A stretch of DNA of 64,000 bases from Microbacterium allomyrinae (GTDB lineage: Bacteria > Actinomycetota > Actinomycetes > Actinomycetales > Microbacteriaceae), in the NCBI RefSeq assembly GCF_020682705.1, contig NZ_JAGTTN010000001.1:1054001-1118000 (forward strand), given 5' to 3'. Position 1 is the stretch's first letter, and every line of letters starts with the position of its first letter. A model generated the notes under the pieces. That model did no database searches, was not told the DNA's origin, and was given only the letters and a program-made list of their open reading frames with translations. Shown here piece after piece: positions 7,763 to 37,266 of this stretch. A program made the translations under genes and the position numbers.

Positions 7763-8476
7763 ATGACCCTCTCCACCGCCTCGTCAGTCGACATGTCCCA
7801 CGTGCGCCTGCTCTCCGAAGCCGTCCATCGCCACGATGTGGACGAGCTCACCTGGGTGGTGAGCGGATCGTGCACGATCGACGCGGATGGGCGCTCATGG
7901 CGGATCGACGAGCAGACCGCGCTGGTGATCCCCGCCGGGCTCGAGCACCGGGTCGTGCCGCGGCCCGACTCCATCGTCTTCCCGATCCTCTTTCCCGACG
8001 GGCTGACCTCCGAGCTCTCCCTCGTGCGCCGCTCCCCCTCGCTCGAGGCGTGCGCGCGCGTGCTCCTGCAGCCGGGACTGACGACACCCGCGGCTCTCGA
8101 CGCGGCGCGGCTCGCCGCATCCGAGTTGATCGGCACCAAGGGCGCGCTACGACGATTGAACGTGCCCGTCGACCCGCGCGCCGAGCATGTGGCTCAGGCC
8201 ATCCTCGCCGCACCGGCGAGCCCCACGGGCCTGGACGAATGGGGCCGGCGCGTGCACGCGAGCGGGCGCACCCTGCAGCGCTGCTTCGTCCGCGAGACCG
8301 GGCTCACGTTCGCCCAGTGGCGCACCGCGGCGCGGCTCGCCGACGCGTGCGAGCGGATCGACCAAGGGCAGAGCGTCGCCACCGTCGCCACGGCGGTCGG
8401 CTATCGCAGCTCGAGCGCGTTCATCGCGGCCTTCCGCCGGCATTACGGGGTCACCCCCGGGCGCAGGGCGAGCTGA
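7763..8476 (+). CDS. AraC-family transcriptional regulator
   Basis: About 237 residues. An N-terminal cupin-like sensing domain (about 1-100: HRHDVDELTWVVSG, VIPAGLEHRV) is followed by a C-terminal pair of helix-turn-helix motifs (about 150-237) ending in the AraC signature VATAVGYRSSSAFIAAFRRHYGVTP. It lies divergent to the siderophore operon across an iron box, so it probably controls iron uptake in response to a siderophore or related ligand. The start is uncertain: ATG at 7763 is chosen, but a TTG at 7715 lies in frame upstream and would overlap the iron box. The stop codon falls in a 19-bp tandem repeat. Confidence 0.85.
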   Translation: MTLSTASSVDMSHVRLLSEAVHRHDVDELTWVVSGSCTIDADGRSWRIDEQTALVIPAGLEHRVVPRPDSIVFPILFPDGLTSELSLVRRSPSLEACARVLLQPGLTTPAALDAARLAASELIGTKGALRRLNVPVDPRAEHVAQAILAAPASPTGLDEWGRRVHASGRTLQRCFVRETGLTFAQWRTAARLADACERIDQGQSVATVATAVGYRSSSAFIAAFRRHYGVTPGRRAS

Positions 8477-8524
8477 GCCGCGCCGGGCGAGCTGGGCCGC
8501 GCCGGGCGAGCTGAGCCGCGTCAG
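8468..8524. repeat. 19-bp tandem repeat, three copies
   Basis: Three head-to-tail copies of GCGAGCTGAGCCGCGCCGG at 8468-8486, 8487-8505 and 8506-8524. The second copy differs at one base and the third at two. The first copy includes the last codons and stop of the AraC gene. The rest of the short gap to 8560 is G/C-rich CGTC-GGCGGC sequence without further signals. Confidence 0.9.
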
Positions 8525-8559
8525 GCGGCCGCGTCGGCCGGTCTCGTCGGGCGGCCTCG

Positions 8560-9534
8560 TCAGGCGGCGGCGCGCAGTCGCATCATCACGGCGACCGCTT
8601 CCTGCACCAGCGCCACGCGTTCCGCGACGGGCGCGTCCTCGCGCGCACAGCCGACCTTGACACCCGCCCAGGCGAGCGGACCCGCCGCACGCAGCACATC
8701 CCTCACGTCCGAGGTCGTCATCAGCGAGCCGGGAGTCGTATGAGCCAGGCCGGGCTCGGGGGCGAACGGCAGATGCGCGTCGATCCACGCCGGCCCGAAA
8801 TCGGTGGGCGTCGCCGCCGCACCGGAAGCCATGAATCCTCGGAGGAGTCCCCGCCCCGCGGATGCCCGAGCGTGCGCCACCGCCGTCGCGGGCGTCCGCC
8901 CCTCGATGACCGACCTGCCCCAGTTGAGCGAGACGCCCAGGTCTGCGCCGGATCGCTCGATCGCATCCAGCTCCTCGTCCAGCGACAGGAACCCCTTCTC
9001 GGGAATCTGGCCTTCCCGCCACGCATCGCAGTGCTCGATGACGAGCTCCGCGCCGTCCCAGTCCCATCCGGCGATCTCGGTGAGCGACTTCGCCAGCGCA
9101 TCCGACGCGCCGCGCACGCCGCGCGGTGCGCTGTGCAGCTCGACCACGCCGACCACTCGGCGACCCTGTGCGTCGTCGAGGCCGCGCACGCCGTCGCGCA
9201 CTCGCCCGACATCCGCGACAGCCCGCTCACGCCCGCCCTCCTCCACCGACGCAAGTCCGTAGCCCGGGTCGCCGGCGATGCGCCCCATCGTGTACGGGAT
9301 GTCGGTGACGACCGCCCCGAGTGCCGTCGGGAAATGGCGGTGCAGCCACGCGTCGTCGTGCGGATGGATGCTGCCGAGCCACGGCAGCTCGAACGCGCCG
9401 ACATCGGGGATCTGCGCCAGCTGTTCGAAGAACTCCTCCTCGGCGGCGGGGTCCCATCGTCTGTGCGCGGGAGAGGCGGCATAGGCGCCGACGACGAGGC
9501 CGGTGAACGGGGTACGGGCGGGACGGCGTGACAT
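8560..9534 (-). CDS. DUF4862 family protein
   Basis: A 324-residue protein of a family I recognise as DUF4862, with a probable TIM-barrel-like fold and no established activity. Visible marks are GAYAASP near the N-terminus, WLGSIHPHDDAWL, VVTDIPYTMG, VELHSAP and a repeated alternation of hydrophobic strands and helices. It has no signal peptide and no membrane segment. The ATG at 9534 follows GAAGGAAGAAG by 7 nt and is preferred over the upstream TTG at 9558. It may form its own unit, since a 13-bp palindrome and a 156-bp gap separate it from the kinase-transketolase operon. Possible role in sugar metabolism is inferred only from context. Confidence 0.68.
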   Translation of the reverse strand: MSRRPARTPFTGLVVGAYAASPAHRRWDPAAEEEFFEQLAQIPDVGAFELPWLGSIHPHDDAWLHRHFPTALGAVVTDIPYTMGRIAGDPGYGLASVEEGGRERAVADVGRVRDGVRGLDDAQGRRVVGVVELHSAPRGVRGASDALAKSLTEIAGWDWDGAELVIEHCDAWREGQIPEKGFLSLDEELDAIERSGADLGVSLNWGRSVIEGRTPATAVAHARASAGRGLLRGFMASGAAATPTDFGPAWIDAHLPFAPEPGLAHTTPGSLMTTSDVRDVLRAAGPLAWAGVKVGCAREDAPVAERVALVQEAVAVMMRLRAAA

Positions 9535-34286: not shown

Positions 34287-35027
34287 TCAGGGCGCGCTCG
34301 AGATCTCCGAACGAGGGCGCACGTGAAGGTGCGTGAGCTGGGCGTCGGGTGAAGCATCCACCACCGCCCGGATCGCTGCCGCGATACTCGCCGGCTCTAT
34401 GTAGCGCTCGGGCTCCCACACCGCGCCTCGGGCCGCACGATCGCTGTGCAGCATCGGCGTTGCCGTCTCACCCGGGTACACCGTCGCGACCCGCACGCCC
34501 GACGCCCCCTCTTCACCACGGAATGCGTCCGCGAGCCCGTTGAGCGCGAACTTCGACGCGGTGTAGACGCTCGTGGTCGGAACGGCGCGCACTCCGGCGC
34601 CGCTGTTCACGAACACCACCTGCCCACGGACGTCGCGGAGGCGGCCGAGGAGCGTCTGGGTGAGCATGGCCGGCGCGATCACGTTGATGTCGAGATGGCT
34701 GCGCCATGCGTCGAGGGGTGCGGCCTCGAGCGTGAAACGCTCCGAGACCGCAGCGGCGTGCACGAGGACGTCCACACGGTCGAGGTGCGCAAGCGCGGCG
34801 GCGTACCGGTCGAAGTCGGCGAGGTCGAGCTCGACGCACTCCACGCCGGCGACGTCCCGCAGCCGCTCGGCGAGGCGCTCGGCGTTCCTGCCGATCGCCA
34901 CGACGCGATGCGTCCGAGCGAGATCGCGCACCACCGAGGTGCCGATGCCGCCGGCTGCCGCTCCTGTCACGACGGCGACCCGCTCGGGGCCGGATGCCGT
35001 ACCTCTCGTCGTCGACTGCTCGTTCAT
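34287..35027 (-). CDS. Short-chain dehydrogenase/reductase (module copy 1)
   Basis: A 246-residue classical SDR. The NAD(P)-binding motif is TGAAAGGIG, the catalytic Ser lies in VNSGAG and YTASK gives Tyr and Lys. ATG at 35027 follows AGAGGA. It is a clear paralogue of the SDR at 44661: both end EPERYI...V/A-RA(V)-D(A)...HL-V-RPR-E. Each sits close to one of the two FAD/NAD(P)-binding proteins. Substrate unknown; a xenobiotic-like alcohol or ketone is possible. A 59-bp tandem repeat lies directly upstream. Confidence 0.86.
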   Translation of the reverse strand: MNEQSTTRGTASGPERVAVVTGAAAGGIGTSVVRDLARTHRVVAIGRNAERLAERLRDVAGVECVELDLADFDRYAAALAHLDRVDVLVHAAAVSERFTLEAAPLDAWRSHLDINVIAPAMLTQTLLGRLRDVRGQVVFVNSGAGVRAVPTTSVYTASKFALNGLADAFRGEEGASGVRVATVYPGETATPMLHSDRAARGAVWEPERYIEPASIAAAIRAVVDASPDAQLTHLHVRPRSEISSAP

Positions 35028-35062
35028 CACTGGGTCCTCTCGGGAGTATGGGTAGTAATAGC

Positions 35063-35264
35063 GGTGCCCCGGGGCGGATTTGTCACGCTGGGACGGGGAT
35101 ATCCCGCCCCACCGTGGGCTGGGTGCCCCGGGGCGGATTTGTCACGTTTCGGCCGGGATATCCCACCCCGCGGTGGGGGCGGTGCCCCGGGGCGGATTTG
35201 TCACGCTGGGACGGGGATATCCCGCCCCACCGTGGGCTGGGCGCCCCGGGGCGGATCTGTCACG
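35063..35264. repeat. 59-bp tandem repeat, three full copies and a partial fourth
   Basis: Units start at 35063, 35122, 35181 and 35240 with an exact 59-bp period. Copies 1 and 3 are identical; copy 2 keeps the first 25 bases (GGTGCCCCGGGGCGGATTTG then TCACG) and the GGGATATCCC palindrome but diverges elsewhere. Copy 4 is cut off after about 25 bases. Copies 3 and 4 form the 3' end and stop codon of the minus-strand FAD/NAD(P) gene. Confidence 0.95.
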
Positions 35265-37213
35265 CGGATGAAGGCGAGTGCGGCGCGCGTCGCGGCATCC
35301 GCTTCGCGCAGGAAGGTTCCCCCGCTGCCGGGGATCGGACTCGCCGTGCCGTTTCCGCGCACCTCTTCGGCGGGAATGCCGAGGAGGAAGACGGGGGCGC
35401 GAACGGAACCGTCCGCAGCCACGATGCGACTCTCGGCCTCGGTGATCTCCACCCCGCCGGTGATGTGGTCCGTGCCGTCGCGGCCAGACACGCGGAAGGG
35501 TCGGGCCATTCCGGTCTCGATCAGCGAGCGGAGCAGCGGACTGGTCGTGCCGGTCGCGCGCGGCATCTGCATCCATGCGTCGACGAGCACGGTGGCTTCG
35601 ACGCGCGAGCCGGGCACCGCGGGGGATTCGGCCACGATCACACCCGATGACTCACGCGATTCGACGTGCACCCGCATCCGCGGCCCGACGAGGTTCACGA
35701 CGCCGGCCGCGATGAGAGCGCGCAGCTGCTGCATCCGGAACGCGGGCGGACCGCTCCCGAGCATGTTGCCGAGCGCGACGAACTCCAGAAAGTCGCGCGC
35801 GTGCGACTCGCCCCAGAGGCCCCCGAACCCGGCGACGTCCCACGCGAGACCGCGAGCGCAGCCGATCGACCAGGCGGCGGCCTTGAGCGCGCTGGCACTT
35901 CCTCGATGTCCCTCGGCGAGATCCTCATCGATGTACTCGGTCACCCAGTCTCGCCAGGCACCCGCATCGATGTACTCCCCGTCCGGCCGTGCCGGATCGA
36001 GAAGTCGTTTCAGATCCAAGCGACTGCGCGGGTCCGGGACATGACGCGCGAGGGAATCCAGCCATTCGTCCGAGTCGAGGTCGTGCGTCCACAGCAATCC
36101 GAGAAGGTCCTCGACCCGACCTCGCACGGCGCCGGGCGACTCTCGTGCCAGCGTCGTGTAGTACGCACTCACGGCATCTTTCCGAATCAGCGGCATCGCG
36201 TCGGCGGCGAAGTCGATCCTGCGCGCGGCAGCGAGCGTGCGCAGTCCACCGAGATGCGCCTGGGGCGTCGACGGAGCGAATCCGGCGTACAGCGGCTTGG
36301 AGCGGAAGGGAACGCCGCGGCGTGAACCCACGTGCAGTCGCGGCTCGCGACCGGACGGCTCATACCGCAGCCCGCCCTTCGGGTCGGCCTCGATGAATCG
36401 GCCACCGCGACCGACCGTCACCAGCGCCATCATGTCGAAGAAGCCCATGCCGAGGCCGCGCACGACGACGTGCTCACCGGCGCCGATCGCATCGAGGTCC
36501 TGTTCGATCGGGCTCGCCGGTTCGATCCACGTGAGGCCACGATTCCGGATGCCGCGCCCGAGTTCGACGTCGGCCGACGGCGCCTGCGAGCCGAGCCACC
36601 CCAGCGCGAGGATCGCCGCATCGACATCCAGGCGGACGCCGTCGCCGAGCTCCACCGTCAGGGCGGGATGCCCGTCCGCGGCCTCTTCGGCGGTCGCCTC
36701 CGCCAGGGCGACGGCGGCGCACTCGTGGCGATGAACGGTGACGCCGGCGGGCAGCGTGCGGATCGCGCGCTGCAGGCACCACTCGAGGTAGCGGCCGTAG
36801 AGCACTCGGGTGGGGTGCGACCAGGGCCGCAGCTGCGCGATCTCGGCTCGAAGTTCGGGGTCGAGCGCCGTGCCGGCGTCGTGCTCGGCGAGCACGGCGG
36901 CGACCGGGGCGCTCACGGCGAGGTCGCCGGATCTGCCTCCGGCGTGAAGACTCCACTCGTACAGGTTCGGGCCCACGACGATGGGCCCGTCGATGGTCGA
37001 GGTCGCATCGGTGAAGAGTCCGATCTCGCCCGCGACCGTGTTCATCACCAGTTCGCGTGACTGCGCATCATGCCAGATCCGTCCTGGGCCGTGCGGGTGA
37101 GGATCGATCAGGTGCAGTTCCCACTCCCGATCGTCCGCCGACCCGAGATTCGCGGCCATGCGCTCGACCACCGCAGTGCCGCGCGGACCCATCCCGATCA
37201 CGGCGATGCGCAT
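35201..37213 (-). CDS. FAD/NAD(P)-binding protein, ~670 residues (module copy 1)
   Basis: A 670-residue cytoplasmic protein with an N-terminal dinucleotide-binding motif (IAVIGMGPRGTAVVERM) and conserved blocks ELVMNTVAGEIGLFTD, VVRGLGMGFFDMMAL and SRRGVPFRSKPLYAG. It belongs to the FAD-NAD(P)-binding group (NAD_binding_9-like) with no defined reaction. Strongly similar along its length to the protein at 46679-48697. The last ~18 residues (DPPRGAQPTVGRDIPVPA) come from the 59-bp repeat and replace the tail seen in the paralogue. ATG at 37213. It lies with an SDR, a redoxin and an ABC importer on the same strand. Confidence 0.8.
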   Translation of the reverse strand: MRIAVIGMGPRGTAVVERMAANLGSADDREWELHLIDPHPHGPGRIWHDAQSRELVMNTVAGEIGLFTDATSTIDGPIVVGPNLYEWSLHAGGRSGDLAVSAPVAAVLAEHDAGTALDPELRAEIAQLRPWSHPTRVLYGRYLEWCLQRAIRTLPAGVTVHRHECAAVALAEATAEEAADGHPALTVELGDGVRLDVDAAILALGWLGSQAPSADVELGRGIRNRGLTWIEPASPIEQDLDAIGAGEHVVVRGLGMGFFDMMALVTVGRGGRFIEADPKGGLRYEPSGREPRLHVGSRRGVPFRSKPLYAGFAPSTPQAHLGGLRTLAAARRIDFAADAMPLIRKDAVSAYYTTLARESPGAVRGRVEDLLGLLWTHDLDSDEWLDSLARHVPDPRSRLDLKRLLDPARPDGEYIDAGAWRDWVTEYIDEDLAEGHRGSASALKAAAWSIGCARGLAWDVAGFGGLWGESHARDFLEFVALGNMLGSGPPAFRMQQLRALIAAGVVNLVGPRMRVHVESRESSGVIVAESPAVPGSRVEATVLVDAWMQMPRATGTTSPLLRSLIETGMARPFRVSGRDGTDHITGGVEITEAESRIVAADGSVRAPVFLLGIPAEEVRGNGTASPIPGSGGTFLREADAATRAALAFIRVTDPPRGAQPTVGRDIPVPA

Positions 37214-37266
37214 CACGTGCGCTCACCCGTCGATCGGTCCGCGCGAAGCGGCAGCGGCGTCATCGA

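Follow-up and report, generated by a model that had tools for sequence, protein, structure and literature searches.

Title: A 59-bp tandem palindromic array in Microbacterium allomyrinae and a candidate nuclease-paired palindrome family in Actinomycetota

The window analysed here, a 64,000-nucleotide stretch of the Microbacterium allomyrinae genome, contains a gene for an FAD/NAD(P)-binding protein and an SDR gene on the same strand, with a tandem repeat at their junction (Table 1). TRF gives this repeat a score of 315, the top of 17 rows for the window. The initial annotation had described an exact 59-bp tandem array in A-B-A order, and this is borne out: the first and third copies agree at all 59 positions, the second matches them over the first 25 bp and is diverged in its second half, and a partial fourth copy is present. 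It had also noted a near-palindromic GC-rich flank in each repeat; the natural unit is an imperfect palindrome of approximately 70 bp rather than the 59-bp period. Alignment of 37 units reveals four GGGGCG-like boxes arranged forward-forward-inverted-inverted; half a unit comprises an outer GCCCCGGGGC, a linker of 7 nt, CAC and a stem with a GGGRCGGG end, and beyond a short loop the same elements recur in mirror image. The period is 59 bp because successive units overlap by a common outer GCCCCGGGGC. Elsewhere in the window (8461-8572) there are GC-rich short tandem repeats with periods of 19 and 13 bp.

Table 1. Features of the array and its flanking genes (window coordinates).
Feature	Position	Strand	Evidence or remark
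Tandem palindromic array, 59-bp period, 3.4 copies	35063..35265	.	TRF; profile matches on both strands
Palindrome unit 1	35064..35136	.	Outer GCCCCGGGGC boxes, inner GGGACGGG..CCCGCCCC
Palindrome unit 2	35123..35195	.	Second half diverged
Palindrome unit 3	35182..35254	.	Equal to unit 1 across the 59-bp period
Partial unit 4	35242..35265	.	Outer box and GATCTGTCACG
FAD/NAD(P)-binding protein gene (Pfam NAD_binding_9)	35201..37216	-	Final ~20 codons and stop within the array
Repeat-encoded C-terminal tail and TGA stop	35201..35265	-	Stop in CGTGAC
SDR (adh_short) gene	34287..35030	-	Directly 3′ of the FAD gene in relatives

As had been proposed, the array lies on the 5′ side of the SDR gene, roughly 32 bp from the start of that reading frame, and the FAD frame ends inside it; the repeat-encoded tail is, however, about 20 residues long (62 nt before the stop) and not 18, and reads ...RVTDPPRGAQPTVGRDIPVPA. 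The conserved part of the FAD protein stops at ...AALAFIR, past which the tails of homologues differ, and thus the suggestion that the repeat replaced an existing tail holds only in that the present tail is repeat-encoded, since it lies beyond the conserved core in a part that is variable in homologues anyway. An insertion-derived C-terminus is upheld: homologues stop shortly past the same helix with unrelated tails, and at 11 of 14 relatives' loci there is no room for the array between the two genes. The idea of a captured stop codon fails, the stop being instead the TGA of the repeat family's own CGTGAC motif; at L010 the stop of another gene likewise falls inside a GTGAC boundary motif.

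At 11 of the 14 best relatives' loci no spacer separates the SDR gene from the FAD gene that it follows; at 10 an in-frame SDR start overlaps the FAD stop by 4 nt, at one (L056) the SDR similarity overlaps that stop, and at three the locus holds no SDR match. These loci are homologues and not proven orthologues (41-46% identity for FAD, 47-51% for SDR), and the naming of an FAD orthologue was abandoned, the best relatives of the FAD protein being 41-48% identical and none having been found in a scan of named genomes. The array would have entered an operon at the FAD-SDR junction, after which the FAD frame would run some 20 codons into it and stop at the TGA of CGTGAC.

A search of the genome with blastn yields 34 places at E<=0.001, more than expected by chance. 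A covariance model returns 70 strand-wise matches, equivalent to 35 distinct units, and three further units are detected by the profile alone, giving 38 units in 18 clusters. A single genomic occurrence is thereby excluded, and the supposition of a dispersed REP-like palindrome family is confirmed. By reading, 11 clusters are co-directional intergenic, five convergent, one divergent and one inside hutI; their neighbours include what we take, from sequence, to be ftsW-murG, the fructose-bisphosphate aldolase gene, asd and purC.

Within the genus, a half-site pattern (whose reversed form gave 0 matches among the rows listed) detects related palindromes in at least 78 of 366 genomes, and the covariance model, with 13 candidates scored per genome, does so in at least 61 of 366, the own genome included. 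A species-only repeat, as blastn would have it with 5 of 366 genus genomes, was rejected on these counts. The sequence boxes scarcely vary inside one species but are different from one species to another. Presence and absence are seen at three orthologous junctions: ftsW-murG, hutI and FAD-SDR. At ftsW-murG, 11 of 29 close relatives carry the hairpin (by eye) and the others have short or unlike spacers, and in one pair of loci, with and without the hairpin, the sequences to either side align at 85-91%. The hutI unit (L080:1501-1573, equal to C1:302054-302126) is in frame and adds residues around 59-83; of 26 relatives examined at this site, 12 lack any additional segment, one (G110) has the GGTTTGGGGCG type in this position, and in several the hairpin is of a different sequence. 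In the hutI linker of L293, L295, L297, L301 and L302 there is a second hairpin family of similar size (CCGCGAGAGTGCA..GACGAGA type). Two related loci, L149 and L237, hold two units and one, respectively, suggesting a change in copy number. Target-site duplications were unreadable at the with/without pairs, the flanks being too diverged, and neither a transposition event nor cleavage was seen. From the dispersal of the units and their presence or absence at orthologous places, we infer that the palindromes are probably mobile.

On contig C14 (81763-82710) the genome carries a solitary gene for an AbiEi-Vsr-like nuclease, with two palindrome units on each side. Its product is predicted to consist of an AbiEi-like N-terminal half fused to a Vsr/homing-type C-terminal domain. 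The AlphaFold2 model, built from 42 sequences, has a pLDDT of 93.9; a first model from five sequences (pLDDT 45.6) was set aside. The model has structural matches to the AbiEi antitoxin 6y8q (Z 11.3, 171 aligned residues, rmsd 7.4) and, for the C-terminal domain, to the catalytic domain of I-Bth0305I (3r3p; Z 9.8, 96 aligned, rmsd 3.1) and Vsr (1cw0; Z 8.3), Vsr-type values of 8-10 being only moderately above what the tool typically returns for unrelated folds. PADLOC AbiEi models match six of six proteins; Pfam gives a weak AbiEi_4 match only, above cut-off in one of four. Residues E209, D241, E252, D254 and K258 are invariant across the 42 nuclease sequences. Pfam DUF559 exceeds its cut-off only in L473 (Tsukamurella), one of four plasmid homologues, and in none of the Microbacterium proteins tried. 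A sequence search of solved structures produced chance matches only, and no phage record matched the nuclease. Since the same neighbour gene stands beside the nuclease gene at 23 of 30 loci, the gene looks vertically inherited and seems not to hop. One paralogue in the genome (L386; C16:56090-56963) is matched in two pieces and is possibly a broken gene.

The association between nuclease and palindrome extends across the genus. GGGGCG-box palindromes lie on both sides of 21 of 30 best-match nuclease loci (L332-L352, by eye), including that of the genome under study (L336) and that of G055. When 30 palindrome-bearing genomes, this one included, were compared with 30 lacking the GGTTYGGGGCG half-site, 26 of the former and one of the latter contained a nuclease match at E<=1e-99 (Fisher 1.9e-11), a figure to be read with the cut set after the values were seen, with shared ancestry ignored by the statistic, and with A3 made solely from palindrome-bearing genomes. 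All 60 genomes have some nuclease profile match. The sole strong match in the half-site-free set, that of G055, lies between copies of a variant GTTTTGGGGCG palindrome; the four palindrome-bearing genomes with no strong match are G070, G308, G273 and G099, the last with a remnant only. In G006, G165, G193 and G279 the palindromes that bracket the best match belong to another subtype, and other paralogues of the nuclease have different palindromes of their own on either side. At the G099 locus (L325 / L389; C1:2024514-2025630) hairpins bracket a 58-residue nuclease remnant together with an acetyltransferase-like gene.

A left-right flank score was obtained for 54 of 58 fetched nuclease loci (L361, L386, L388 and L389 were excluded as cut, split, distant or remnant). 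Fifty-one exceed the 95th percentile of the controls and 46 the 99th; the median is 46, versus 16 at 152 control genes, and no clear bracketing repeat is present at three loci (L364, L367 and L378). The four listed control outliers comprise two nuclease family genes, L414:9226 and one unrelated gene. By eye, L414:9226-10137 (C12 of this genome) is DUF559-like and possibly a further relative; it has no Pfam match, and TCGAGAGTGCAC-type hairpins lie nearby. Over 42 loci, nuclease identity correlates with palindrome similarity (Mantel r 0.69, equalled in 0 of 2000 permutations). In the stretches sampled from three genomes (864 kb of this one, 400 kb each of G050 and G048) no palindrome type turned up in a genome other than that of its matching gene, and there were no cross matches. 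The clade-A type of this genome occupies 12 places and its other types 4-6, the G050 type four and the G048 type three; the cognate palindromes in all three genomes thus have further copies besides the bracketing pair. Outside the genus, all four homologues on plasmid records are bracketed (scores 60, 83, 60 and 47), namely three from Tsukamurella, whose records represent one strain, and one from Collinsella. Open-licence PMC text contained no report tying AbiEi/DUF559 nucleases to flanking palindromes, which is weak evidence of absence.

The array in the window probably arose by tandem expansion from a single species-specific member of this nuclease-paired palindrome family. More broadly, with a probability that we put at about one half, the data reflect a previously undescribed mobile palindrome system of Actinomycetota, in which a solitary AbiEi-Vsr-type nuclease recognises, cuts and copies a clade-specific four-box palindrome. 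The nuclease would be the agent that spreads the palindromes. Its AbiEi-like winged helix would bind the boxes, much as an AbiEi antitoxin recognises inverted repeats of its own promoter (PMC7319586). The Vsr/homing-type domain would then cut at or near the boxes, in either duplex or folded-strand form, after which the palindrome would be copied by repair or strand transfer to new, mostly intergenic sites, the nuclease gene itself remaining in place. Since the self-complementary outer GCCCCGGGGC can be common to neighbours, tandem growth at a 59-bp spacing would be favoured.

The placement and pairing of the units invite another explanation, namely that they are conserved 3′-end hairpins (terminators or mRNA-stabilising elements, acting in both directions where genes converge) spread by duplication and selection, the nuclease link being incidental. 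Of 58 relatives' loci (L083 excluded), 32 are co-directional, 19 convergent, two divergent and five called within a gene (convergent versus divergent, p 0.0002), and many units begin 11-15 nt past a stop codon. Stem pairs covary between genomes: in a set that drew a single unit from each of 29 loci of relatives and four from the own genome, the long hairpin has 21 two-sided pairs versus 16.2 in shuffles, and 140 two-sided cells versus 64.6. Because those loci had been picked with a paired model, covariation was retested on 30 loci selected by the left arm only (the two sets overlap in at least one locus, G049); there the right arm is complementary at a single spacing (77% at 69 nt, against 32-55% at other lengths), and the middle stem retains an excess of pairing, for example 20 of 30 versus 11.6 shuffled. 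Against this, the copies within the own genome reveal no covariation of stem pairs above shuffles, and selection on RNA, judged from those copies alone, was rejected. An intrinsic terminator T tract is absent at the 38 own units, where T in the 10 nt on either side averages 1.4 and 2.0 with a maximum of 4, and at 28 relatives' units. Nor would conserved 3′-end hairpins be expected to have boxes that are fixed within a species and different between species, to bracket both ends of a nuclease gene with cognate sequence, or to lie inside hutI. No Rfam match reached the gathering score in the stretches given, where matches were sub-threshold only. On balance we consider this explanation unlikely.

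It is less likely still that the palindromes are operators, through which the AbiEi-like domain autoregulates its own gene while the dispersed copies serve as regulon sites. The promoter binding of AbiEi antitoxins cited above (PMC7319586) fits this, and two forward plus two inverted boxes resemble a multimer site, but there are copies on the downstream side of the nuclease gene as well, and the tandem arrays, the post-stop copies and the hutI copy are unlike promoter operators. That the units are a classical REP or MITE moved by a yet unidentified Y1 (HUH) or DDE transposase is highly improbable: they are palindromic, intergenic and species-specific, as REPs are, but Y1_Tnp (PF01797), which the same search finds in five of 14 control genomes, has no match in this one, and a Y1 transposase was dismissed as the driver, a result that speaks to the Y1 family only.

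Were the nuclease indeed to recognise and copy the palindromes, an unrelated enzyme would be doing for them what RAYT does for REPs, several such pairs with mutually exclusive specificities could coexist in one genome, and insertions could rewrite gene ends, as in the FAD protein and HutI. A second, chemically unrelated pairing of enzyme and palindrome would mean that this life style has more than one origin. It would also account for hypothetical genes of the "AbiEi / DUF559" class, which are common in Actinomycetota, and would provide testable protein-DNA pairs with orthogonal specificities, along with concrete examples of repeats turned coding sequence.

Among known systems, the Vsr-like (EDxHD) homing endonucleases such as I-Bth0305I and DUF559 proteins are predicted to share the C-terminal fold at the Z scores given above, whereas the present nuclease lies outside an intron, is fused to an AbiEi-like half and is bracketed by palindromes. 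AbiE type IV toxin-antitoxin systems resemble it in the AbiEi fold of the N-terminal half and in the PADLOC matches; the protein described here differs in carrying its own predicted nuclease domain. Integron attC sites and the subterminal hairpins of IS200-IS605 resemble the present units in being imperfect palindromes with paired boxes, conserved in structure but variable in sequence; their enzyme families are tyrosine recombinases and Y1, respectively, and no cassettes or integrase were seen here.

The layout resembles that of the REP/RAYT system as described in two accounts (PMC3733652, PMC8266576): species-specific palindromes, mostly intergenic, after or between genes, and a solitary enzyme gene that seems to be inherited vertically and has its cognate palindrome on both sides, with repeats and enzyme co-varying. 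The enzyme of a REPtron is, by the same accounts, a Y1/HUH transposase, whereas here it is an AbiEi and Vsr-like nuclease; the unit is approximately 70 bp with four boxes, versus 20-40 bp for REPs; the consensus of 37 aligned units is without the GTAG end, and no CGTC tag was seen; and the 38 dispersed, intergenic units fall below the more than 100 given as typical of REPs in PMC2817692. Other palindrome families, for example the CGTC REPs, have no known enzyme, according to PMC3733652. Because the enzyme and the unit size fall outside the REPtron class, the system is not filed there, but it may still work like one.
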